47,406 nucleotides of DNA from Flavobacteriales bacterium (GTDB lineage Bacteria; Bacteroidota; Bacteroidia; Flavobacteriales_F; PHOS-HE28), in contig JADZAC010000092.1 in the NCBI GenBank assembly GCA_020852835.1, forward strand, positions 1 through 47,406, in the 5' to 3' direction. Of this stretch, positions 14,218 through 27,583 are shown one piece after another. Position numbers and translations under genes: made by a program. How positions within the stretch are numbered: the stretch's first letter is position 1; the number at the start of each line of letters is the position of its first letter. The notes below the pieces were generated by a model that worked only from the letters and a program-made list of their open reading frames with translations, was not told where the DNA came from and did not search any database.

Positions 14218-14283
14218 GCGTGGAACAACAGGGGCCCGGGCAACTTCCGGTCCCTGGATCGCATCATAGCCCAAGCGAAGGTC

Positions 14284-14829
14284 ATGACGGATGAGCAACT
14301 GGTTGCCGGATGCCTGAAAGGGGACCCGATCGCCCAAAAGGCGCTCTATCAGACCTATGCGCGCAAGATGATGAGCATCTGCATGCGATATGCTCCCGGG
14401 AGGGAACAAGCGCAGGACATCCTCCAGGATGGTTTTGTGAAGGTGTTCCAGAAAATGGACCACTACCGGGGCGAGGGCCCGCTGGGCGGCTGGATCGCCC
14501 GCACCATGGTGAACACGGCCTTGGACCACATCCGGCGCAACAAGCCCTTTGAACACAGCTTGGACCTCACCGAGGCCGAGCACCTGCATGCCATCGATGA
14601 ACAGGTGTTGGCCAGCATGGGGGCCGATGAGCTCCTGGCATTGATCCAGGCCTTGCCCCCGGGCTACCGCACCGTGTTCAACCTCTTTGTCATCGAGGGC
14701 TATCCCCACAAAGAGATCGGTGCGATGCTGAACATCTCGGAGAACACCTCCAAATCCCAATTCATGAAAGCGCGGGCCTTCCTGCGCAAACTATTGCCCA
14801 AGGAAACCGTGGACCTGCACGGAAATTGA
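14284..14829 (+). CDS. ECF-type RNA polymerase sigma-70 factor
   Basis: A 181-residue sigma factor. Region 2 is MTDEQLVAGCLKGDPIAQKALYQTYARKMMSICMRY... followed by REQAQDILQDGFVKVFQKMDHYRGEGPLGGWIARTMVNTALDHIR; region 4 is LIQALPPGYRTVFNLFVIEGYPHKEIGAMLNISENTSKSQ. Region 3 is absent, as in ECF factors. The start ATG follows directly on AAGGTC. The next gene begins one base after its stop and encodes a single-span membrane protein with two short repeats typical of Bacteroidetes ECF-linked membrane proteins, so it is the likely anti-sigma factor. Targets are unknown; the adjacent secreted proteins are natural candidates. Confidence 0.93.
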   Translation: MTDEQLVAGCLKGDPIAQKALYQTYARKMMSICMRYAPGREQAQDILQDGFVKVFQKMDHYRGEGPLGGWIARTMVNTALDHIRRNKPFEHSLDLTEAEHLHAIDEQVLASMGADELLALIQALPPGYRTVFNLFVIEGYPHKEIGAMLNISENTSKSQFMKARAFLRKLLPKETVDLHGN

Positions 14830-14830
14830 C

Positions 14831-15904
14831 ATGAACGAACCGCTCCAGAACGTGTTCCGTGAACGCTTGGCCGGCCATGAAATGGACGTGCCCGGTGGTG
14901 CATGGGAGCAGATCCAAGGCCAGTTGGCCGCAGAGGCCGGCAGCCAGGCCCTGCGGGAAAGCATGCAGCACAAGTTCCAAGGCCATGAGCTGCCCGTGGA
15001 CCCCTCCGCCTGGTCCAACATCAGCACCCAGCTGGGGCATGGCATGGCCGCCGGCTCCACCTTCGGTACCGCCTGGATCGCAGCAGGCGTTGGCGCTGTT
15101 GCCCTCACCGCCGGGCTGCTGTGGTGGAACCGGCCGGAACAAATGCCTTCTTCGGCCGCCCAACCGGCACTGGTGGTCTTGGAACTGCCTCCTACAGCGT
15201 CCAATACAGATCCTGCGGTGGCGGTGGCACCTGCAGAGGCAGACCGGCAAAACACGGAAGCAGCGGCTGTTCCACTGCCGCAACAACTACCCACGGCCCT
15301 GCGCAGCAGCACGGAAGAGCCTGACCTGACCAAAGTGGCCGAAGTGGGCCCGGTGGTGCGCAAGGAAGCAGGAAACGCTCCTAAAACCCAAGCCGTGCAT
15401 ACCGTGATCGAGCGGGATGCACCAATGCAGCAGCAAGAGGCGCAACCGCTTGCCGTGAACAGGGTGCAGCAACAAACGGCCTCCGCTTCCCCGGCACGGA
15501 CGACCTCACCTTCCGGCGACGACCAAGTGACCAAAGAGGCACCTCCAAGCTCTGTGGCAACGGACCGAACCGCCCAAGACAATGGGGAAGCACCGGCACT
15601 GGACCCGTTCACCAGCGAAGTGGCCAGCGGCATCTTCATACCCAATGTCTTCAGCCCGCAAGGCGACGGCGTGAACGACACGCTCAAGGTGGTGGCCAGC
15701 GGCTATGAACGGGCGGAAGTGCGCGTGATCTCCGCCAAAACGGGCAACTTGGTGTTTGAAAGCAACAACCTGGGCCACATGTGGACCGGACGCCTGGCCA
15801 ACGGCGACATCGCCGAGGAGGGCTACTACCGCTGCGTGGTAGTGCTCACGGATCCCAACGGACAGACCCGGATCAAAACAGAAGTTGTTCGCTTGTACCG
15901 CTGA
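14831..15904 (+). CDS. Putative membrane anti-sigma factor with a T9SS type B-like C-terminal domain
   Basis: 357 residues with an unusual build. Residues 9-32 and 49-68 are two copies of a short module (GHEMDVPGGAWEQIQGQL and GHELPVDPSAWSNISTQL), which resembles the cytoplasmic start of Bacteroidetes proteins encoded after ECF sigma genes. One membrane helix follows at about 80-99 (AWIAAGVGAVALTAGLLWW). Then comes a 150-residue linker rich in A, P, E, Q and T, and from about 265 a gliding-motility-type C-terminal domain: IFIPNVFSPQGDGVNDTLKV, then a truncated beta sandwich ending VVRLYR. There is no signal peptide, so the domain would sit in the periplasm on an inner-membrane anchor. Sigma binding is inferred from position and the module; the C-terminal domain is clear. 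Confidence 0.72.
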   Translation: MNEPLQNVFRERLAGHEMDVPGGAWEQIQGQLAAEAGSQALRESMQHKFQGHELPVDPSAWSNISTQLGHGMAAGSTFGTAWIAAGVGAVALTAGLLWWNRPEQMPSSAAQPALVVLELPPTASNTDPAVAVAPAEADRQNTEAAAVPLPQQLPTALRSSTEEPDLTKVAEVGPVVRKEAGNAPKTQAVHTVIERDAPMQQQEAQPLAVNRVQQQTASASPARTTSPSGDDQVTKEAPPSSVATDRTAQDNGEAPALDPFTSEVASGIFIPNVFSPQGDGVNDTLKVVASGYERAEVRVISAKTGNLVFESNNLGHMWTGRLANGDIAEEGYYRCVVVLTDPNGQTRIKTEVVRLYR

Positions 15905-15905
15905 G

Positions 15906-18845
15906 ATGAAAAGATTTCTCCCGCTTGGGGCACTCGCATGCATGGTTGCAACGGCCGTGGCGCAGGTACCGCCGGCGCACATCACCGATGCGGCAGGCTA
16001 TGCGGCGTGGAAAGCAGAACTGGCGGCGCAAACCCCGGTGATCCCGCCCGCCCATCCCTCCCAACCACCCGGGTCTGCGCGGGACAGCATACCCACCTGC
16101 GAATGTTGGATCAGCCCCGATGCGTCGTACACCACCATCGACAACAACACCCAGTGGAACGCCAGCGGTTGGGGCAATGGCGATGACGGCTCCTACGGAC
16201 CGGTGAACCTGCCGTTCGGGTTCGACCTGTACGGCCAAACCTACACCGTGGCCTACATCAACATCAACGGCAACATCTCCTTCGGGCCCGGCAACTTCAT
16301 CACCACGTGGTCCCCCACGGGTTTCCCGGCCACCGGCCCTTCCATGGTGGCCCCCTTTTGGGCCGATGTGGACCTGCGGCCCGTTGGCCCCAATTTGAAT
16401 TTGGTGCAATACAAGGTGACCCCAACGGCCCTGTATGTGAATTGGACCAATGTGGGCTACTACAACATGCAGACGGACAAGCTGAACAGCTTTCAGGTGA
16501 TCATTACCGATGGCAACGACCCGGTGGTTCCCAACGGAGCGAACGTATCCTTCTGCTACGGAACCATGGAATGGACCACGGGCAGCGCCTCCGGGGGCTC
16601 CGGCGGATTCGGAGGCAGCCCTGCCTCGGTAGGTGCCAACAAAGGGGATGGGATCAACTACATCCAGTTTGGCCGTTTCGACCATCCGGGCACGGACTAC
16701 GACGGGCCTTTCGGTGCGGCGGACGGCATCGGCTGGCTCACTGGAAAGCACTTCACCTTCCTTACGGACCAAACCACGGGCAACGTGCCGCCGGTGATCA
16801 CCGGGCAGTCCGTGTGCGATTCCATCACCGTATGCACCGATCAGCTCACCCAGTTGAGCGTGGATTTCCTTTCCCCCGAACCCGGGCAGATCACCACCCC
16901 GACCTCCTCCGCCGCCACCCTGCCCAATTACTCGGTGGTGAGCGCCACCCCGGGACTGAACGCCAACATCATCACAGAGTTCCTGCCCACGGCAGCGGAC
17001 ACGGGCTACCATGACGTGTATTTCTACGGCACCGACGATGGCACCCCCGTGATGACCTCCACGCTCCACATTGTGGTGCAGGTGCTGCTCTCACCCCAGC
17101 TACAGTCGAGCAGCTTGCTGGTTTGTGACAACGGCCCGCCGTTCAACATGCTCTCCGTGCTGGGCGGGAGTGCTCCGGCCGGGGGCACTTGGACTGCACC
17201 CGGCGGAACGGCGCACGACTCGTTGTTCATACCGGGGGTGGACGTGAACGGAGGGTATCTCTACACCGTGGGCACCGGTACGGTCTGTGCCGCCACCGGG
17301 GTGGCCACCATCACCAACGTGCCGCATGCCTTTGCAGGTGCGGATACGGCCTTGGCCTTTTGCTCTTGGGACTATCCCGAGCCGCTCTTTCCGCTCCTGC
17401 CCGGCGGTGCGCAAACCGGCGGTACCTGGTACAACCCGGCCGGCAACTCCTTCAACGGCACGTTGGACCCGGGCGCGGATTCCAGCGGTGTGTTCAAGTA
17501 CGTCGTATGGGGCAGCACCCCTTGCCCGAATGACACGGCGTTGCTCTCCGTTTCCATACCGCAGGCCGTGAGCGCCGGCAGCAATACGTCCATTGCCCTA
17601 TGCCGGGATGCCGCACCCTTCAGCATGCGCGGCCGCCTCTTGGGCATGCCGGACAGCACCGGCACTTGGGCCGACGTGAACGGCGCAACCGTGTCCGACC
17701 TCTTTGATCCGGCCACAGGCACCATTGGCGTGTACACCTACACGGTGCCGGCAGTGCTGCCCTGCCCCGATCAAAGCGCCACCCTCACCATCAACCTTGA
17801 TCCCATCCCTGTGGCGGGCGCGGACAGCTCCTTGGTGATCTGCGCCAACGGGGGTAACACCCCGCTCTTCGGGTTGCTGGGCGGCACCCCCGACCTGGGC
17901 GGGCATTGGCTCACCCCCACGGGTGCACTGCTGGACAACGGGCTGTTGGACCCCAGCTTGGAACTTTCCGGCGATTACCGCTACGTGGCGATCGGCCCGG
18001 GCACCTGCGCCCACCTCTCGGACACGGCCGTGATCAACGTGCACATCGATCCCTTGCCGGTGATCACCTTCACCGCCGACCCGGACAGTGGTTGCAGTCC
18101 ACTGGAGGTGGATTTCTTCAACACTACGGACACGATCTACGTGGGGAACTCCTGCCTGTGGGATTTCGGCGACGGAACGGACCCCGTGGAAGCCTGCAGT
18201 TCGATCACGCACACCTATGCCCAGCCAGGTTGGTACCATGTGAAGCTGCGCATCACCACCCCGGAAGGCTGCACCGACCAGTTGATCGCTCCCGGTGCCG
18301 TGCTGGTGGATCCACCCCCGCAGGCCAACTTTGTTTTCACGCCCGACCCGGCCACGCCGGGCAACAACACCGTGGTGTTCACCGCCACGGACCCGCATGC
18401 CACCGAACACCTCTGGTACTTCCACGATGGCAGCTACCAATCCACTCCTCAAGCCTTCTTCTCCTTTCCGGATGAGCTGGCCGGGCAATACCCCGTGTGC
18501 TTGTATGTACGTGACCGCTACCACTGCGCCGATACCTTGTGCGACACCCTTTCGGTGCTGGTTCCCAACCTGTGGGTGCCTACGGCGTTCACTCCTGACG
18601 GCAATGGGGTGAATGACGTGTTCAAGCCCGTTCTGCTGGACATGGACCTGAGCGCCTATCGGTTCCTGGTGTACGACCGCTGGGGGCAGTTGGTACTGGA
18701 AACCACCGACCCGGAGCAAGGCTGGGACGGCAGGCAAAACGGGAAACTTTCACCGGCAGGAGTGTACGTGTACCGGATCCTCTACCGGCCGATGCTGGCA
18801 CCGGATGCCTTGGAGCGGTTTGGCACCATTACCCTGCAACGATGA
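15906..18845 (+). CDS. Large secreted nidogen-like, PKD and T9SS type B sorting-domain protein
   Basis: 979 residues with signal peptide MKRFLPLGALACMVATAVAQ. After a CECWISPDASYTT motif near 65, residues about 95-250 form a nidogen-like domain (FDLYGQTYTVAYININGN, MVAPFWADVDLR, ALYVNWTNVGYY, YIQFGRFDHPG). A second conserved block carries SVCDSITVCTDQL and DFLSPEPGQITT. About four Ig-like repeats of 75-80 residues follow, each with a GGTW-type core and paired cysteines, then a PKD domain (LWDFGDGTDPVEAC) and the C-terminal sorting domain with AFTPDGNGVNDVFKP and VYDRWGQLV. It is expected to be exported by Sec and T9SS to the cell surface. It begins one base after the previous stop and is a paralogue of the next gene. 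Confidence 0.85.
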   Translation: MKRFLPLGALACMVATAVAQVPPAHITDAAGYAAWKAELAAQTPVIPPAHPSQPPGSARDSIPTCECWISPDASYTTIDNNTQWNASGWGNGDDGSYGPVNLPFGFDLYGQTYTVAYININGNISFGPGNFITTWSPTGFPATGPSMVAPFWADVDLRPVGPNLNLVQYKVTPTALYVNWTNVGYYNMQTDKLNSFQVIITDGNDPVVPNGANVSFCYGTMEWTTGSASGGSGGFGGSPASVGANKGDGINYIQFGRFDHPGTDYDGPFGAADGIGWLTGKHFTFLTDQTTGNVPPVITGQSVCDSITVCTDQLTQLSVDFLSPEPGQITTPTSSAATLPNYSVVSATPGLNANIITEFLPTAADTGYHDVYFYGTDDGTPVMTSTLHIVVQVLLSPQLQSSSLLVCDNGPPFNMLSVLGGSAPAGGTWTAPGGTAHDSLFIPGVDVNGGYLYTVGTGTVCAATGVATITNVPHAFAGADTALAFCSWDYPEPLFPLLPGGAQTGGTWYNPAGNSFNGTLDPGADSSGVFKYVVWGSTPCPNDTALLSVSIPQAVSAGSNTSIALCRDAAPFSMRGRLLGMPDSTGTWADVNGATVSDLFDPATGTIGVYTYTVPAVLPCPDQSATLTINLDPIPVAGADSSLVICANGGNTPLFGLLGGTPDLGGHWLTPTGALLDNGLLDPSLELSGDYRYVAIGPGTCAHLSDTAVINVHIDPLPVITFTADPDSGCSPLEVDFFNTTDTIYVGNSCLWDFGDGTDPVEACSSITHTYAQPGWYHVKLRITTPEGCTDQLIAPGAVLVDPPPQANFVFTPDPATPGNNTVVFTATDPHATEHLWYFHDGSYQSTPQAFFSFPDELAGQYPVCLYVRDRYHCADTLCDTLSVLVPNLWVPTAFTPDGNGVNDVFKPVLLDMDLSAYRFLVYDRWGQLVLETTDPEQGWDGRQNGKLSPAGVYVYRILYRPMLAPDALERFGTITLQR

Positions 18846-18948
18846 ACACCCCGCACCCGGCCGCAGCAGATCCAATGATGGCCGATCGCCGTTCTTGAGT
18901 TAATTTGGCAACCCCTGTCCCCGAAACATGGAGCCTTTCCTACCCAAC

Positions 18949-21054
18949 ATGAAAAAAGTCCTTTCCACCTTGATCATCGCCATGGCCGGCATCGGAGCCG
19001 CCCATGCCCAAATGGTCGAGCTGACCGTGGAACAGTATCAGCAAATGAAGCTGACCGGCACGCTCCCGGCGGAATACCACGTGAGCTACACCACCCTGCC
19101 TCCACCGGAAGTGCAGGCCGTGAACCAAGCCAAGGGCGGCGGCGGCACCGGCGGAAGCTGCAATTGCTGGATAGAACCGGATGCCACCTACACATTGGCC
19201 CTGCAGCCCAATGACGACGGCTCTTCGAGCATGATCACCCTGCCGTTCCAGTTCAACCTCTATGGTGAGCTCTACAGCACTTGCTATGTGAACAACAACG
19301 GCAATGTATCCTTCGTCACCCCCTTCGGCACCTATTCATCCGCTGCCTTTCCCAACACCCAGTTCAAGATGGTGGCCCCTTTCTGGGCCGACGTGGACAC
19401 GCGCAACAACGGCGGAACCGTGAAGTACAAACTGACTTCCAACGCGCTCTACGTGAATTGGACCGACGTGGGCTACTACAGCCAACAGACGGACAAGCTC
19501 AACAGCTTCCAGCTGATCATCAGCGACGGTACCAACACCGACGTGGGTGTCGGCAGCACAGTTTCCTTCTGCTACAAGGATATGCAGTGGACCACCGGCA
19601 GCGCCTCCGGCGGAGTGGGCGGCTTCGGCGGAACACCGGCCACCGTTGGTGCCAATCGGGGCAATGGCATCGATTATATCCAATTTGGCCGCTTCGACCA
19701 TGCAGGTGTGGACTATGACGGCCCGTTCGGCATCAATGATGGCATCAGCTGGCTGGATCAAAAGAACTTCGTGTTCACCACCGCGGTAAGCACGCAGAAC
19801 ATTCCGCCCATCGCCAGCAGCACTTCGCTGTGCGACACGGTGGACGTGTGCGTGAACGAACTGGTGGACCTGGACGTGAACTTCCTTTCACCCGAGCCGG
19901 GCCAGCTCACTACAGCGGGCTACACCATCACCCCGCCGCTCAATGCTACGGTCACGGAGACCAATTCGGGCCCGGCCAATACGGCCAACCTGCACCTGCA
20001 GTTCATCCCCACCGTGGCCGACACGGTCAATGGCGGCATTCACGTGATCACTTACACGGCCACCGATGATGGCGCCCAACCCCTGACCGCCAGCGTAACC
20101 GTGGTGATCCGCGTGTTCTACGTGGCCGCGCCTCCGCCAACGATCAGCGGCGATAGCGTGGCCTGCGCCATGCAGGGCGTGGTGCTTACGGCAAGCGGGG
20201 GCTATGAAAACTATGAGTGGTCCAATGGTTGGAACGGCGAAACCGTGTTGGTCGGACCGGGCACCTACTATGTGGAAGCCAGCACCGGCGCATGCATCCT
20301 GGTGTCCAACTACATCACGGTCACGGAGGCGCCCAACCCCACCCCGGTCATTACGGGGGTGCTGTACAACTGCGGCGGGGAGCCGGCCGTGCTCACCACG
20401 GACAGTGCCTACGCCACCTATGCCTGGAGCAATGGCAGCACCGACCCGAGCATCAGCGTGGGCACGGGCACCTATACGGTGGCGGTGACCGATGAAAACG
20501 GCTGCCCGGGCACCTCGCCTGCAGTGAACGTGCTGAGCGCCAACGCCCCAACAGCCATGTTCTTGGGAAATCCCAACGGGGAGATCTTCCCCGGCACCAC
20601 CGTGGTATACACCGACCAGTCCAACGGAAACGGCTCACCGATCGTGGATTGGCAATGGACCGTGGACACCCTGGCCAGCGGTAGCGGCACCACCTTCACT
20701 GTGCCATTCGATACCCCAGGCATCTACCCGGTGACCCTCACGGTGACCACGGCGGACGGCTGCACGCATACCTACGTGTACGAGCAGATCGTGGTGCCCA
20801 CGGAGATCGTGGTGCCCAACGTGTTCAGCCCCAACAACGACGGGCATAACGATGCCTTGGTGTTCGCCGGGGTGCAGTTCTACCCCAACACCTCGCTGAA
20901 GGTGATCAACCGCTGGGGCAAGGAAGTGTATACCAGCACCAATTACAAAAACACCTGGAGGCCGGGCAGCGATGTGCCGGACGGCACCTATTACTACATC
21001 CTGAAGATGGCCAGCGGCAAGGAGTACACCGGCAACGTCACGTTGCTGCGCTAA
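18949..21054 (+). CDS. Secreted nidogen-like and T9SS type B sorting-domain protein, paralogue of the preceding gene
   Basis: 701 residues with signal peptide MKKVLSTLIIAMAGIGAAHAQ; an in-frame ATG at 18928 would add seven residues. The CNCWIEPDATYT motif and the nidogen-like domain (FNLYGELYSTCYVNNNGN, MVAPFWADVDTR, ALYVNWTDVGYY, YIQFGRFDHAG) are very close to the upstream protein, as is SLCDTVDVCVNEL followed by NFLSPEPGQLTT. The middle is shorter: two Ig-like repeats with YEWSNG and YAWSNG and one PKD-like domain. The C-terminus has NVFSPNNDGHNDALVF and VINRWGKEVY, the T9SS type B pattern. The pair arose by tandem duplication, with loss or gain of central repeats. A strong terminator follows. 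Confidence 0.86.
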   Translation: MKKVLSTLIIAMAGIGAAHAQMVELTVEQYQQMKLTGTLPAEYHVSYTTLPPPEVQAVNQAKGGGGTGGSCNCWIEPDATYTLALQPNDDGSSSMITLPFQFNLYGELYSTCYVNNNGNVSFVTPFGTYSSAAFPNTQFKMVAPFWADVDTRNNGGTVKYKLTSNALYVNWTDVGYYSQQTDKLNSFQLIISDGTNTDVGVGSTVSFCYKDMQWTTGSASGGVGGFGGTPATVGANRGNGIDYIQFGRFDHAGVDYDGPFGINDGISWLDQKNFVFTTAVSTQNIPPIASSTSLCDTVDVCVNELVDLDVNFLSPEPGQLTTAGYTITPPLNATVTETNSGPANTANLHLQFIPTVADTVNGGIHVITYTATDDGAQPLTASVTVVIRVFYVAAPPPTISGDSVACAMQGVVLTASGGYENYEWSNGWNGETVLVGPGTYYVEASTGACILVSNYITVTEAPNPTPVITGVLYNCGGEPAVLTTDSAYATYAWSNGSTDPSISVGTGTYTVAVTDENGCPGTSPAVNVLSANAPTAMFLGNPNGEIFPGTTVVYTDQSNGNGSPIVDWQWTVDTLASGSGTTFTVPFDTPGIYPVTLTVTTADGCTHTYVYEQIVVPTEIVVPNVFSPNNDGHNDALVFAGVQFYPNTSLKVINRWGKEVYTSTNYKNTWRPGSDVPDGTYYYILKMASGKEYTGNVTLLR

Positions 21055-21072: not shown

Positions 21073-21107
21073 AGGAAGCCCCGGCAACAGCGGGGCTTCC
21101 TTTATTT
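21073..21107 (+). terminator. Intrinsic terminator after the nidogen-like pair
   Basis: AGGAAGCCCCG (21073-21083) and CGGGGCTTCCT (21091-21101) form an 11-bp perfect stem with a seven-base loop, followed by TTATTT. It lies 19 bases after the stop and 9 bases before metF, separating the surface-protein operon from metF. Confidence 0.88.
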
Positions 21108-24049: not shown

Positions 24050-24644
24050 GGCTCCCGGACATCCGGTGAGCCATCATGCGCTGCACGTACTTGCCCAGCA
24101 CATCCAGCTCCACGTTCACCCGTGAGCCTGCGGCCAGCGTGCGGAAAGTGGTGTGCTCATGGGTATATGGGATCACGGCCACGCTGAAACTGCCGCGGCC
24201 CAATGCCGCAATGGTCAGGCTTACACCATTGAGGCAGATGGAACCCTTCTCCACCAGCAGTTCAGGTTGCTGCGGCAGGCTGAAGGTGAACCACCAGCTG
24301 CCTTCCCGCTCTTCCACGGCGGTACAATCCACGGTGGCATCCACGTGGCCCTGCACCAAGTGCCCGTCCAGCCGGTCGCCCACCCGCAAGCTGCGCTCCA
24401 GGTTCACGCCATCACCCGGTTTCAAGCCGCCCAGGTTGCTGCGTTGCAGTGTCTCCTCCACGGCCGTCACGCGGTAGCGCAGGCCTTTGCGCTCCACCAC
24501 GGTGAGGCACACCCCGTTGTGCGCCACGCTTTGGTCGATGCGCAACTCCGGCGCCATGGCCGCTTCCAACACGATCTCCCTGTTGCTGCCGACCGGGGTG
24601 ACTTCCACCACCGTGCCCACCTGCTCCACAATTCCGGTGAACAT
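24036..24644 (-). CDS. ribE: Riboflavin synthase alpha chain
   Basis: Dismutates two molecules of 6,7-dimethyl-8-ribityllumazine into riboflavin and a pyrimidine. The 202-residue protein has two similar lumazine-binding barrels: MFTGIVEQVGTVVEV... with AHNGVCLTVVER near 42, and GHLVQGHVDATVDC near 94 with SICLNGVSLTIAAL near 133. The start ATG overlaps the stop of the upstream T9SS gene by one base, so translation may be coupled, although the two proteins have no obvious common role. The 3' end is convergent with the M1 aminopeptidase. No FMN riboswitch is visible. Confidence 0.96.
   Translation of the reverse strand: MFTGIVEQVGTVVEVTPVGSNREIVLEAAMAPELRIDQSVAHNGVCLTVVERKGLRYRVTAVEETLQRSNLGGLKPGDGVNLERSLRVGDRLDGHLVQGHVDATVDCTAVEEREGSWWFTFSLPQQPELLVEKGSICLNGVSLTIAALGRGSFSVAVIPYTHEHTTFRTLAAGSRVNVELDVLGKYVQRMMAHRMSGSPTAL
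24050..24072 (+). terminator. Stem-loop just after the aminopeptidase stop, inside ribE
   Basis: GGCTCCCGGA (24050-24059) pairs with TCCGGTGAGCC (24062-24072) as a ten-base-pair stem with one bulge and a two-base apex that must open in practice. It starts one base after the TAG of the aminopeptidase and lies within the ribE coding sequence. There is no T-run, so termination is tentative. Confidence 0.4.
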
Positions 24645-27304
24645 CAGTTCTGCTGCACTTGGTTGCCGCCCAACAGGTGCACCGAGCCTTTGAGGACCAT
24701 CGGCTCCGCGCCAGCCAACCGTTTGATGAAGACCGTGCAGACATAGAAGTACACGCCGTCCGGAACGGGCTCGCCCGCGTTGTTGAGCGTGCCATCCCAG
24801 CGGATGTCCGGGTCGTTGGTGGCGAACACCACCTGCCCCCAGCGGTTGAACACCTCCAGGTCGATCTCCTTCACCCCGCGGTAGGGGAACGGTATGAACA
24901 GGTCGTTGACACGGTCATTGTTCGGGGTGAAGACGTTGGGCAGGGTGTAGTCCGGGCAGTTGTCACCGCACGCTTGGTTGCTGAAGGCGCTCTCGTTGCC
25001 CACCGAGTCGATGGCGGTGACCACGTAACAGCCAGCCACCGAAGCACCGTCCACGTGGGTGAAAACGGTATCACCGGCACCGGTGATGGTGTGGATCAGC
25101 AGTGGTGTTCCACCAAGGCTTTCGCTGAAATAAATGTTGTAGCGCCAGGTGTCGTCCGCGCAGCTGTTGTTGGGATCGTTCCAAGTGAGCGTGTTCAGCG
25201 GCAGCTCACAATCATTCACTAGGGCCAGCGTGGGCGGGCAGGGCGGAGTGAGGTCCACCGGGCTTGCGCACGCTTCTTGGCTGAAGTTGATCAGCGGCGA
25301 AACGATCGCGGGGTCATCATAGGCACCAATGGACTTCACATAATAGCAGTAGCTCTCGCCGTTCACCAGTCCGGTGTCCACGTAAACCGGTCCGGCCGTG
25401 GTGCCGATGGAAGTGAACACCCCGCTGATGAGCCGGAACACCTCAAACTGCGTGTTCACCCACGGGGTGTTGTAGTTGATGTGCAGGGTGATCTGCTCGT
25501 CGTTGGGTTCAGGCACCAGGAACACCGATGAGGCCGTGTTGCCGGATCCGACCAGTGTATTGCCTCCTTCGCTGAGGAGTTCCACGCGGTAGGTATGCGC
25601 CACGCTGCGCGTATCCAGCCCGGCATCGGTGAAGGCCGTATCGGGATGGGCCAGGAAAGGGGAGTTCGACGAAGTGAACACCAGTTCGGTGGCAGTGGCA
25701 GATCCGGTACCGCGATAGAGCTTGAAGCGGTAGGGGCCGGGGTATTGCAGCGTGTCCAGGTCGTAGGCGTTGCTCCAGCGCACGGTATCCACCCCGGAAG
25801 CATTGTCGGTAATGCCCACGCTCACGTGCGTCATGATGGGCACATCACGCTCCAGCATGTTGCAGAACTCCACGCTGGCATAGCTCTCCGCCCCATCGGC
25901 AAAGGTGGCCGTTACCAGGTAGCAATAGGTGACGCCGAAGGCCAGGCCCGCGTCGGTATATGCCGTGCCGTTCAGCCCGCCGGTGCTGCCGATGAGCTGG
26001 TAGCCGGTGTATCCGGGCACGCCGGTTTCGCAGTGGCCGTGCGTCCAGCCGGTGCTCCCCTGGTGACGGTAGATGCGGTAGCCCGTGGCATTGGCGCAGG
26101 TGCTGGGCTCCCAAGCCAGTTCCATCACGCCGCCGTTGGGGCTGGCAGCGGGGTTCTGCGGTGCCGGGGCCACCACGGTGATATTCATGGTTTGGTAATC
26201 CTGTAATTGCACCGGGCTGGAATTGTCGCGGGCATTGAATACCACTTGCCAGGGCTGCTGCCGCACATGGGAACAATCGGTGCCCCAGGAGAAGTTGCCG
26301 TTGACCACGTTCTGCGCCGGGCTGGAGGTGAACACTGCCGGAGAGCTGGCCACCAGGAAGGGTGCGCCGAAAGCATCCAAGGTGATGGTCTGGCCCGCAT
26401 CGGGGTCGGTGGCCTGTACACTGAAGGCCAAGAGCGTTCCGGCCTCCACGCAGGTATCCTGCAACTGGGCGATCACCGGTGGTTGGTTGTTGCAAGGGCC
26501 CACGATCACCTGCATGTCGCGTTCCACCCAGCCGATGCTCACCCATTGGCCGTTGATCTTGCGCCACTCGCGCACAATGAAGGCGATGTTGTAAATGCCT
26601 GAAAGCTGCGGTGACTCCCACGTGATGGTGCCGCTGGTGGGGTCGACGGCATACTGGTTGTTCGCGCCAGGCATCACCTGATCGGGGAATTGATACCCGG
26701 GAATGGGGTTTCCCAGTCCATCCTCCGGTATGTTCAAGTCACCGCCCAAGCACACCATGGGTTCAAAGGAGAGGCTGTCGCCGTCGGTATCGTATGCGCC
26801 GGGGTTGTGCACCCAGGGCTGGCCCAAGCAGGCATTTTGGATGGGCGGGTTGAGAAAGCGCGGACTGCAATTGTTGCCGGCCACGCTGATCACCAGTTGC
26901 GTTTGCACGCACATGGGCACGTTCACCGAACCGGGGATGTTCACCACATCGGCCACGCGGTTGGGGTCGATGTACTGCAGCAGGTACACCCCGGGACCCG
27001 GGTATACATGTTGCTGGATGTACAGGTTGCGCTGTGTGGACACACCTGCAACGGTGATCACGTCGGAGGCATCACGGTCGATGGTGTCCAGCGGGGTATT
27101 GTCGCCCCAATCCAAGATGAACTCCGGCCGGTCTGCCGGAGAGTTCGGGTTGGTGTAAGTGATGATGGTAACCTCGTAAGTGAGGCTGCCCGCGTCGCCC
27201 ACGTGGCACACCAGGATCTCGCCCGCCTCATTGTGGGTGGCATGGGCAACCAAGGCGCAAGCCACCAGCAACCCGGCCCAGAACGTGCGGAGATATGCGC
27301 CCAT
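24644..27304 (-). CDS. Large secreted surface protein with T9SS type B sorting domain
   Basis: 886 residues with signal peptide MGAYLRTFWAGLLVACALVAHA followed at once by THNEAGEI, a mature N-terminus frequent in gliding-motility-type Bacteroidetes adhesins. The first 300 residues form two beta domains (VTIITYTNPNSPADRPEF, LDWGDNTPLDTIDRD). The centre holds several fibronectin type III-like repeats (LAWEPSTCANATGYRIYRH, RFKLYRGTG, WRYNIYFSE). The C-terminus has NVFTPNNDRVNDLFIPFPY and VFNRWGQVVF, the T9SS type B signature. A longer in-frame start 20 codons upstream would bury the signal peptide. The stop overlaps the ribE start by one base. An adhesive or matrix role is inferred from architecture only. 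Confidence 0.87.
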   Translation of the reverse strand: MGAYLRTFWAGLLVACALVAHATHNEAGEILVCHVGDAGSLTYEVTIITYTNPNSPADRPEFILDWGDNTPLDTIDRDASDVITVAGVSTQRNLYIQQHVYPGPGVYLLQYIDPNRVADVVNIPGSVNVPMCVQTQLVISVAGNNCSPRFLNPPIQNACLGQPWVHNPGAYDTDGDSLSFEPMVCLGGDLNIPEDGLGNPIPGYQFPDQVMPGANNQYAVDPTSGTITWESPQLSGIYNIAFIVREWRKINGQWVSIGWVERDMQVIVGPCNNQPPVIAQLQDTCVEAGTLLAFSVQATDPDAGQTITLDAFGAPFLVASSPAVFTSSPAQNVVNGNFSWGTDCSHVRQQPWQVVFNARDNSSPVQLQDYQTMNITVVAPAPQNPAASPNGGVMELAWEPSTCANATGYRIYRHQGSTGWTHGHCETGVPGYTGYQLIGSTGGLNGTAYTDAGLAFGVTYCYLVTATFADGAESYASVEFCNMLERDVPIMTHVSVGITDNASGVDTVRWSNAYDLDTLQYPGPYRFKLYRGTGSATATELVFTSSNSPFLAHPDTAFTDAGLDTRSVAHTYRVELLSEGGNTLVGSGNTASSVFLVPEPNDEQITLHINYNTPWVNTQFEVFRLISGVFTSIGTTAGPVYVDTGLVNGESYCYYVKSIGAYDDPAIVSPLINFSQEACASPVDLTPPCPPTLALVNDCELPLNTLTWNDPNNSCADDTWRYNIYFSESLGGTPLLIHTITGAGDTVFTHVDGASVAGCYVVTAIDSVGNESAFSNQACGDNCPDYTLPNVFTPNNDRVNDLFIPFPYRGVKEIDLEVFNRWGQVVFATNDPDIRWDGTLNNAGEPVPDGVYFYVCTVFIKRLAGAEPMVLKGSVHLLGGNQVQQN

Positions 27305-27583
27305 GGAATGCCCAAAGTTCGGCAATATCGGATCAGCCACCGTTGCAGCGGCCTGCCGTTCCATGGACGCAAGCCACCGTTCGTCGGTTTACCGGGGCGC
27401 CGGGGTTGCATCAAGTACCGGACCGGCCCGAACGGATCGTGTTCGCTGCAATGCAGGAGTACCGGCAAGAAGGGCAGCGAAGCAGTGCTGGCAGGGCTGC
27501 CGTTCCGCCGCAGGCCAAGTGCTGCCCCATGGCGAGCCCTATCTTCGGCCGATCTTTCCAAGTGTTACAAGATCCGACACCTT
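27305..27583. promoter_or_regulatory. Divergent promoter region
   Basis: 279 bases separate two divergent genes. On the minus strand GAACTTTG (27313-27320), one mismatch from TAnnTTTG, lies nine bases before the T9SS gene. On the plus strand no good box was found; GATCTTTC at 27561-27568 is a weak candidate for the aminopeptidase. Open frames through this stretch look non-coding. Confidence 0.4.

Follow-up and report, generated by a model that had tools for sequence, protein, structure and literature searches.

A putative ECF sigma/anti-sigma switch for type IX surface cargo with a sorting-tag-like sensor in a Flavobacteriales genome

The 47,406-nucleotide contig JADZAC010000092.1 of a Flavobacteriales bacterium (assembly GCA_020852835.1), referred to over its full length as the window, carries at positions 14284-21054 four genes coding for an extracytoplasmic function (ECF) sigma factor, a single-span membrane protein and two large secreted proteins. 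On balance, we interpret this operon as an autoregulated ECF sigma/anti-sigma switch for surface cargo of the type IX secretion system (T9SS), in which the membrane protein would be the anti-sigma factor and would carry a sensor domain resembling a T9SS tag. This interpretation is carried by the domain architecture, the linkage of the genes, the promoter element and the type of the target genes, all of which are established by sequence comparison.

Operon layout and architecture of the membrane protein

14239-14267, plus strand: putative autoregulatory ECF promoter, GGCAAC-N16-GCATCAT
14284-14829, plus strand: ECF sigma factor, 181 amino acids (Sigma70_r2, 3e-16; Sigma70_r4_2, 2e-15)
14831-15904, plus strand: putative membrane anti-sigma factor, 357 amino acids (Pfam CHU_C, 9.4e-12; alignment of 32 orthologues; AlphaFold)
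15906-18845, plus strand: secreted NIDO-PKD-CHU_C protein 1 (NIDO1), T9SS type-B cargo (Pfam NIDO, PKD_4, CHU_C; TIGR04131 45.3 bits, cut-off 35)
18928-21054, plus strand: secreted NIDO-PKD-CHU_C protein 2 (NIDO2), T9SS type-B cargo (Pfam NIDO, CHU_C, PKD_4; TIGR04131 48.1 bits, cut-off 35)
21073-21101, plus strand: intrinsic terminator, 11-pair stem followed by TTTATTT (terminator scan)

The original prediction described four plus-strand genes running from the sigma factor to a terminator at 21073, the first three one base apart, and two large paralogous nidogen-like secreted proteins. Coordinates, domains and hairpin were all recovered. The intergenic gaps are 1, 1 and 82 bp (the last is 103 bp if NIDO2 begins at a possible alternative start at 18949), and NIDO1 and NIDO2, which both combine NIDO, PKD and CHU_C domains, are 51% identical across approximately 330 residues.

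The sigma factor contains sigma-70 regions 2 and 4 only, both above the Pfam cut-off, which defines it as an ECF member, and is 75-91% identical to the sampled orthologues of the genus. In the membrane protein, the two short sigma-linked modules proposed originally are a real repeat of about 35 residues (LFRERFxGHExxVDPxxWxxIxxQL), seen in the orthologue alignment, and W25, F49, H52, E53 and W61 are invariant. The modules (residues ~5-33 and 35-66) are followed by a transmembrane segment (~83-99), a disordered linker (103-264) and a CHU_C-like domain (266-357). AlphaFold, run with a nine-row alignment, models the modules as helix-loop-helix with modest confidence and the transmembrane segment as a helix at 83-99; the predicted local distance difference test score (pLDDT) is below 50 for the linker and above 90 for the CHU_C sandwich. 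A signal peptide is absent, the N-terminus being hydrophilic and the sole hydrophobic segment lying at 83-99. CHU_C is the only Pfam match at E-values up to 1, and neither a FecR nor a zf-HC2/ASD domain was found. Most genus members carry two module copies and about six carry three (L081, L088, L089, L091, L095, L103), while proteins from other genera mostly have one or two. Altogether, 65 of 69 CHU-type proteins contain one hydrophobic segment, and the linker from it to the CHU_C domain has a median length of 166 residues (52 proteins), which, if extended, would be long enough to cross the periplasm.

Conservation, promoter element and target genes

Conservation was analysed in 45 genomes of the genus, a sample equal to that of the order, and in 296 genomes from 164 genera of the class. 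A full-length orthologue of the membrane protein is present in 39 of the 45 genus genomes and contig-edge fragments were found in two more; the sigma gene adjoins it in 38/38 loci. The profile of the N-terminal module matches 101 of the 296 class genomes (64 of 164 genera), and the sigma gene lies immediately upstream in 40/40 loci from other genera, which were drawn from the best-scoring matches, so that these proportions describe the nearer relatives rather than the whole class. The co-occurrence in related genomes that the original prediction had named as its test is thus kept throughout the genus and recurs in numerous further genera.

The C-terminal part of the protein is more variable. 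Among the 40 other-genus loci, 33 proteins end in CHU_C, three in OMP_b-brl_2 (L245, L261, L270) and one in PorP/SprF (L256); a further one has a sub-threshold CHU_C match (L249) and two are unclassified. In the PorP/SprF case (L256:4422-6347), the shared N-terminal module and transmembrane segment are fused to the barrel that is a known partner of type-B tags. In family f15 (L240, L241, L246, L269), a second sigma gene follows the pair, and at L269 a further weak module match comes after it. Three Bacteroidales loci (L112, L140, L150) have a gene of approximately 430 amino acids directly after the CHU_C anti-sigma gene, which encodes an M16 peptidase in the two that were scanned (L112, L150) and might contribute to sigma release.

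Further systems of this kind are present in the window genome itself. On contig C65 (30356-35655; L100), a second operon encodes a sigma factor, a 424-residue protein and an 1106-residue CHU_C protein, with GGCAACC...GCGTCTT upstream of the sigma gene; as read from its sequence, the 424-residue protein has one module, a transmembrane segment, PKD-like repeats and a CHU_C-like end. On contig C12 (L099:4513-5985), a sigma paralogue is followed by a module-transmembrane protein with a barrel-like C-terminal sequence without Pfam match. The latter resembles the Dma proteins of Bacteroides, which belong to the dual membrane-spanning anti-sigma systems Dma/Das (Dma1-3, ECF21; PMC13088901). CHU_C-type and Dma-like versions thus appear to coexist in the window genome.

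These data bear on the possibility that the membrane protein, instead of being an anti-sigma factor, has an accessory or structural role in T9SS and merely shares a transcript with the sigma gene. In favour of this, it shows no match to a known anti-sigma family. Linkage to the sigma gene is, however, kept in 78/78 loci while the other neighbours vary, and the same module occurs on Dma-like barrel proteins, so that we regard this explanation as very improbable.

The element GGCAAC-N16-GCATCAT lies upstream of the sigma gene in 36 of 38 genus loci and was obtained in 0 of 200 shuffle rounds. The window copy ends 16 bp before the sigma start codon, a distance that is nearly fixed across the genus. 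The element contains AAC and xTC, which are hallmarks of ECF promoters. A looser form, GCAAC-N17/18-[AG]TC, was found upstream in 31 of 43 other loci (shuffle mean 0.2). In the window genome the exact element occurs once, at the operon, and this stays the only site when the element is lengthened to 20 bases and up to three mismatches are allowed. Other genus members show additional recurring matches, which, judged by eye from a repeated codon-like pattern, resemble coding sequence. No vegetative sigma-70-type promoter was detected inside the operon in a scan with the E. coli consensus, Bacteroidota-type vegetative promoters being outside that scan.

Targets in other genera were searched with CAACYTTTT-N11-GCATCT (up to one mismatch) in 24 class genomes. 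Five of 12 exact sites that do not precede a sigma gene of the same family directly precede CHU_C genes (p ~3e-7; L368, L386, L389, L392, L394); the target at L368 encodes SprB repeats and is followed by a PorP/SprF gene. CHU_C cargo lies downstream of the element in genomes G105, G139, G103, G072 and G135. Two more of the 12 precede GEVED adhesins whose ends fall beyond the contig. In G105, 20 sites were found against 0 for a reversed-pattern control, and one-mismatch sites there precede a PKD-CHU_C gene followed by a NIDO-CHU_C gene (L425), a pair of CHU_C genes (L424) and two genes for type-A-tagged proteins (L379). The roughly 20 sites of this genome (L366-L383) are scattered, many of them before T9SS cargo, which makes it a good genome for regulon work. 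Some element sites sit before other genes or within coding sequence. The proposal of a self-contained operon therefore stands for the genus, in which the element is unique to the operon, but does not apply generally, since other genera have the element before scattered cargo. The best reading is a regulon that, in the window genus, has been reduced to the operon itself.

Cargo also adjoins the pair. In almost all of the 38 genus loci, CHU_C cargo follows the pair, being either NIDO-PKD-CHU_C or CUB/P-domain-PKD-CHU_C. In 11 of 39 loci from other genera, the next gene downstream encodes CHU_C cargo, compared with about 1.3% of genes (p ~2e-12); the background is derived from approximately 40 CHU_C genes per genome and a gene number estimated from genome size, and the p-value is too small owing to the relatedness of the genomes, although the 11 loci span at least six families. 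While the other domains of the cargo differ (NIDO, CUB/PKD, SprB repeats, Ig, GEVED), the type IX tag does not change. A signalling role of the nidogen domain was rejected as a general mechanism because the cargo domains vary. Of the sigma/sorting-domain anti-sigma/cargo arrangement proposed originally, the co-occurrence and the enrichment of adjacent T9SS cargo outside the genus stand, and the nidogens are not a conserved part. SprA_N is found in 287 of 296 class genomes and is near-universal, so its co-occurrence is uninformative on dependence on T9SS.

Two observations concern the surroundings. The terminator at 21073-21101 has the longest stem among six scan matches, a match count not above that of shuffled sequences. 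On the minus strand at 24644-27364, a further large CHU_C protein is encoded near the operon, beside a riboflavin-synthase-like gene and without the promoter element upstream.

The CHU_C-like domain and competing explanations

The domain of the membrane protein scores 45.3 bits with Pfam CHU_C (cut-off 27) but only 23.0 bits with TIGR04131 (cut-off 35), and thus corresponds to a T9SS type-B tag only in part. The PNxFTPNGDG, W-G and GxY motifs are kept. The RWG motif is found in none of the family members (0/41 in the genus, 0/37 in the class), compared with 93% and 65% of cargo proteins. The T9SS-type outer domain proposed originally was therefore borne out as a CHU_C match and not as a full type-B tag. 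Because the RWG motif of cargo is absent, the domain is probably a sensor or decoy rather than a normal export tag. Its nearest CHU_C neighbour outside its own locus is a protein of the same family in 36/37 class and 37/41 genus cases, which indicates a CHU_C lineage of its own that was not borrowed from the adjoining cargo.

The domain might instead be a periplasmic immunoglobulin (Ig)-like sensor unrelated to T9SS traffic, responding for example to envelope stress or to a misfolded periplasmic protein, with the CHU_C match reflecting the fold only. Loss of RWG fits such a sensor, as do the Foldseek matches of the model, which are general Ig-like domains, PorZ and PorU among them. The target genes, however, are T9SS cargo, the alternative C-terminus is PorP/SprF, and the PNxFTPNGDG and W-G..GxY motifs are kept, which makes this explanation rather improbable.

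Somewhat less improbable, though still unlikely, is a protein that spans both membranes like Dma1: its CHU_C domain would be exported via T9SS and held on the cell surface by a protein of the PorP/SprF type, and the signal would be an external ligand or surface mechanics, not secretion load. The layout of module and linker is that of the Dma proteins (PMC13088901), the barrel and PorP/SprF C-termini of the relatives would sit in the outer membrane, and the linker is sufficiently long. However, the RWG motif is lost and TIGR04131 remains below its cut-off, the membrane protein lacks a signal peptide, and no PorP/SprF gene was found in the window operon with Pfam.

The proposed switch and related systems

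For the autoregulated switch, we infer as follows how the sigma factor is bound, what the signal and the docking partner are, in which direction the response goes and how release occurs. The N-terminal modules would hold the sigma factor at the inner membrane, and the single transmembrane segment and disordered linker would present the CHU_C domain across the periplasm. There, most likely, the domain would act as a tethered decoy that docks on a reader of type-B tags, either a PorP/SprF-type shuttle or the translocon. In support of this, type-B tags pair with or bind PorP/SprF shuttle proteins (PMC9143113, PMC12618676). With scarce cargo the docking site would be free, and docking or pulling would lead to proteolysis or a conformational change that releases the sigma factor. 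The freed sigma factor would transcribe its own operon from GGCAAC-N16-GCATCAT and yield more cargo, until abundant cargo displaces the decoy by competition, which would shut the switch. The model is further supported by the second sigma/anti-sigma/CHU_C-cargo operon on contig C65, by the separate lineage of the CHU_C domain, by the length of the linker and by the OMP_b-brl_2 and PorP/SprF C-termini that relatives carry on the same N-terminal module.

Several points weigh against this model. Hold of the modules on the sigma factor is deduced indirectly, from a linkage that is never broken and from the presence of these modules on Dma-like proteins. In about two thirds of the non-genus loci, no cargo gene lies directly next to the pair. 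At L396 the element precedes a second sigma gene with a barrel-type partner, and cargo sites in some genomes may answer to such a paralogous sigma factor, which makes their assignment uncertain. The missing RWG motif also counts here. In F. johnsoniae, secretion was lost when any one of five conserved type-B motifs was mutated (PMC12618676). Docking of a CHU_C domain without RWG on a normal reader is uncertain for this reason, although RWG may or may not be one of the five motifs.

More tentatively, the switch may represent a tethered FlgM-like principle for type IX secretion that much of the class shares, each cargo set having its own version: an inner-membrane anti-sigma factor would gauge the occupancy of the shuttle or translocon by means of a type-B tag decoy and match cargo transcription to export capacity. 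In flagella, FlgM is an anti-sigma factor of sigma-28 with a secretion signal, and transcription follows the secretion status. Both anti-sigma factors would bear a secretion signal, but FlgM is a soluble protein that a type III system exports completely, whereas the window protein is tethered and its tag looks degenerate. FecI/FecR is another parallel, in which a single-span anti-sigma factor passes a signal from the envelope on to its ECF sigma factor; the window system has neither a FecR domain nor a TonB-dependent transducer. With type-B C-terminal domain (CTD) substrates such as SprB and PG1035 (TIGR04131/CHU_C), the window protein shares the CHU_C fold and the PNxFTPNGDG and W-G/GxY motifs, but it is anchored in the inner membrane, without signal peptide and RWG and below the TIGR04131 cut-off.

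By layout, Dma/Das (PMC13088901) appears to be the closest published system. Shared are the adjacent ECF sigma factor, the N-terminal cytoplasmic domain, one transmembrane segment, a long disordered tether and a C-terminal envelope domain. The window protein, however, ends in CHU_C and not in the defining beta-barrel, which relatives with the same module do carry, and its targets are T9SS cargo, whereas the targets reported there for Dma are outer-membrane vesicle and polysaccharide utilization locus genes. PorXY-SigP/PorA of P. gingivalis likewise includes a T9SS-tied ECF sigma factor that is affected by a CTD-bearing protein; there, SigP is activated by a two-component system, the CTD protein is separate and at the surface, and the targets are machine genes, not cargo (PMC7712824). 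A published anti-sigma factor with a CHU_C, CTD or T9SS-tag domain was not found in a literature search that left many journals uncovered.

The regulation of T9SS cargo in Bacteroidota is largely open, the known regulator PorXY-SigP acting on machine genes. A widespread sigma/anti-sigma pair with a tag-imitating sensor and a readable promoter would provide a direct, testable link between secretion status and surface expression. It would also widen the Dma class, adding to its barrels the T9SS-linked sensors CHU_C and PorP/SprF, all on one common sigma-linked module. This suggests that Bacteroidota with the switch adjust the output of surface proteins to the state of their secretion machinery.

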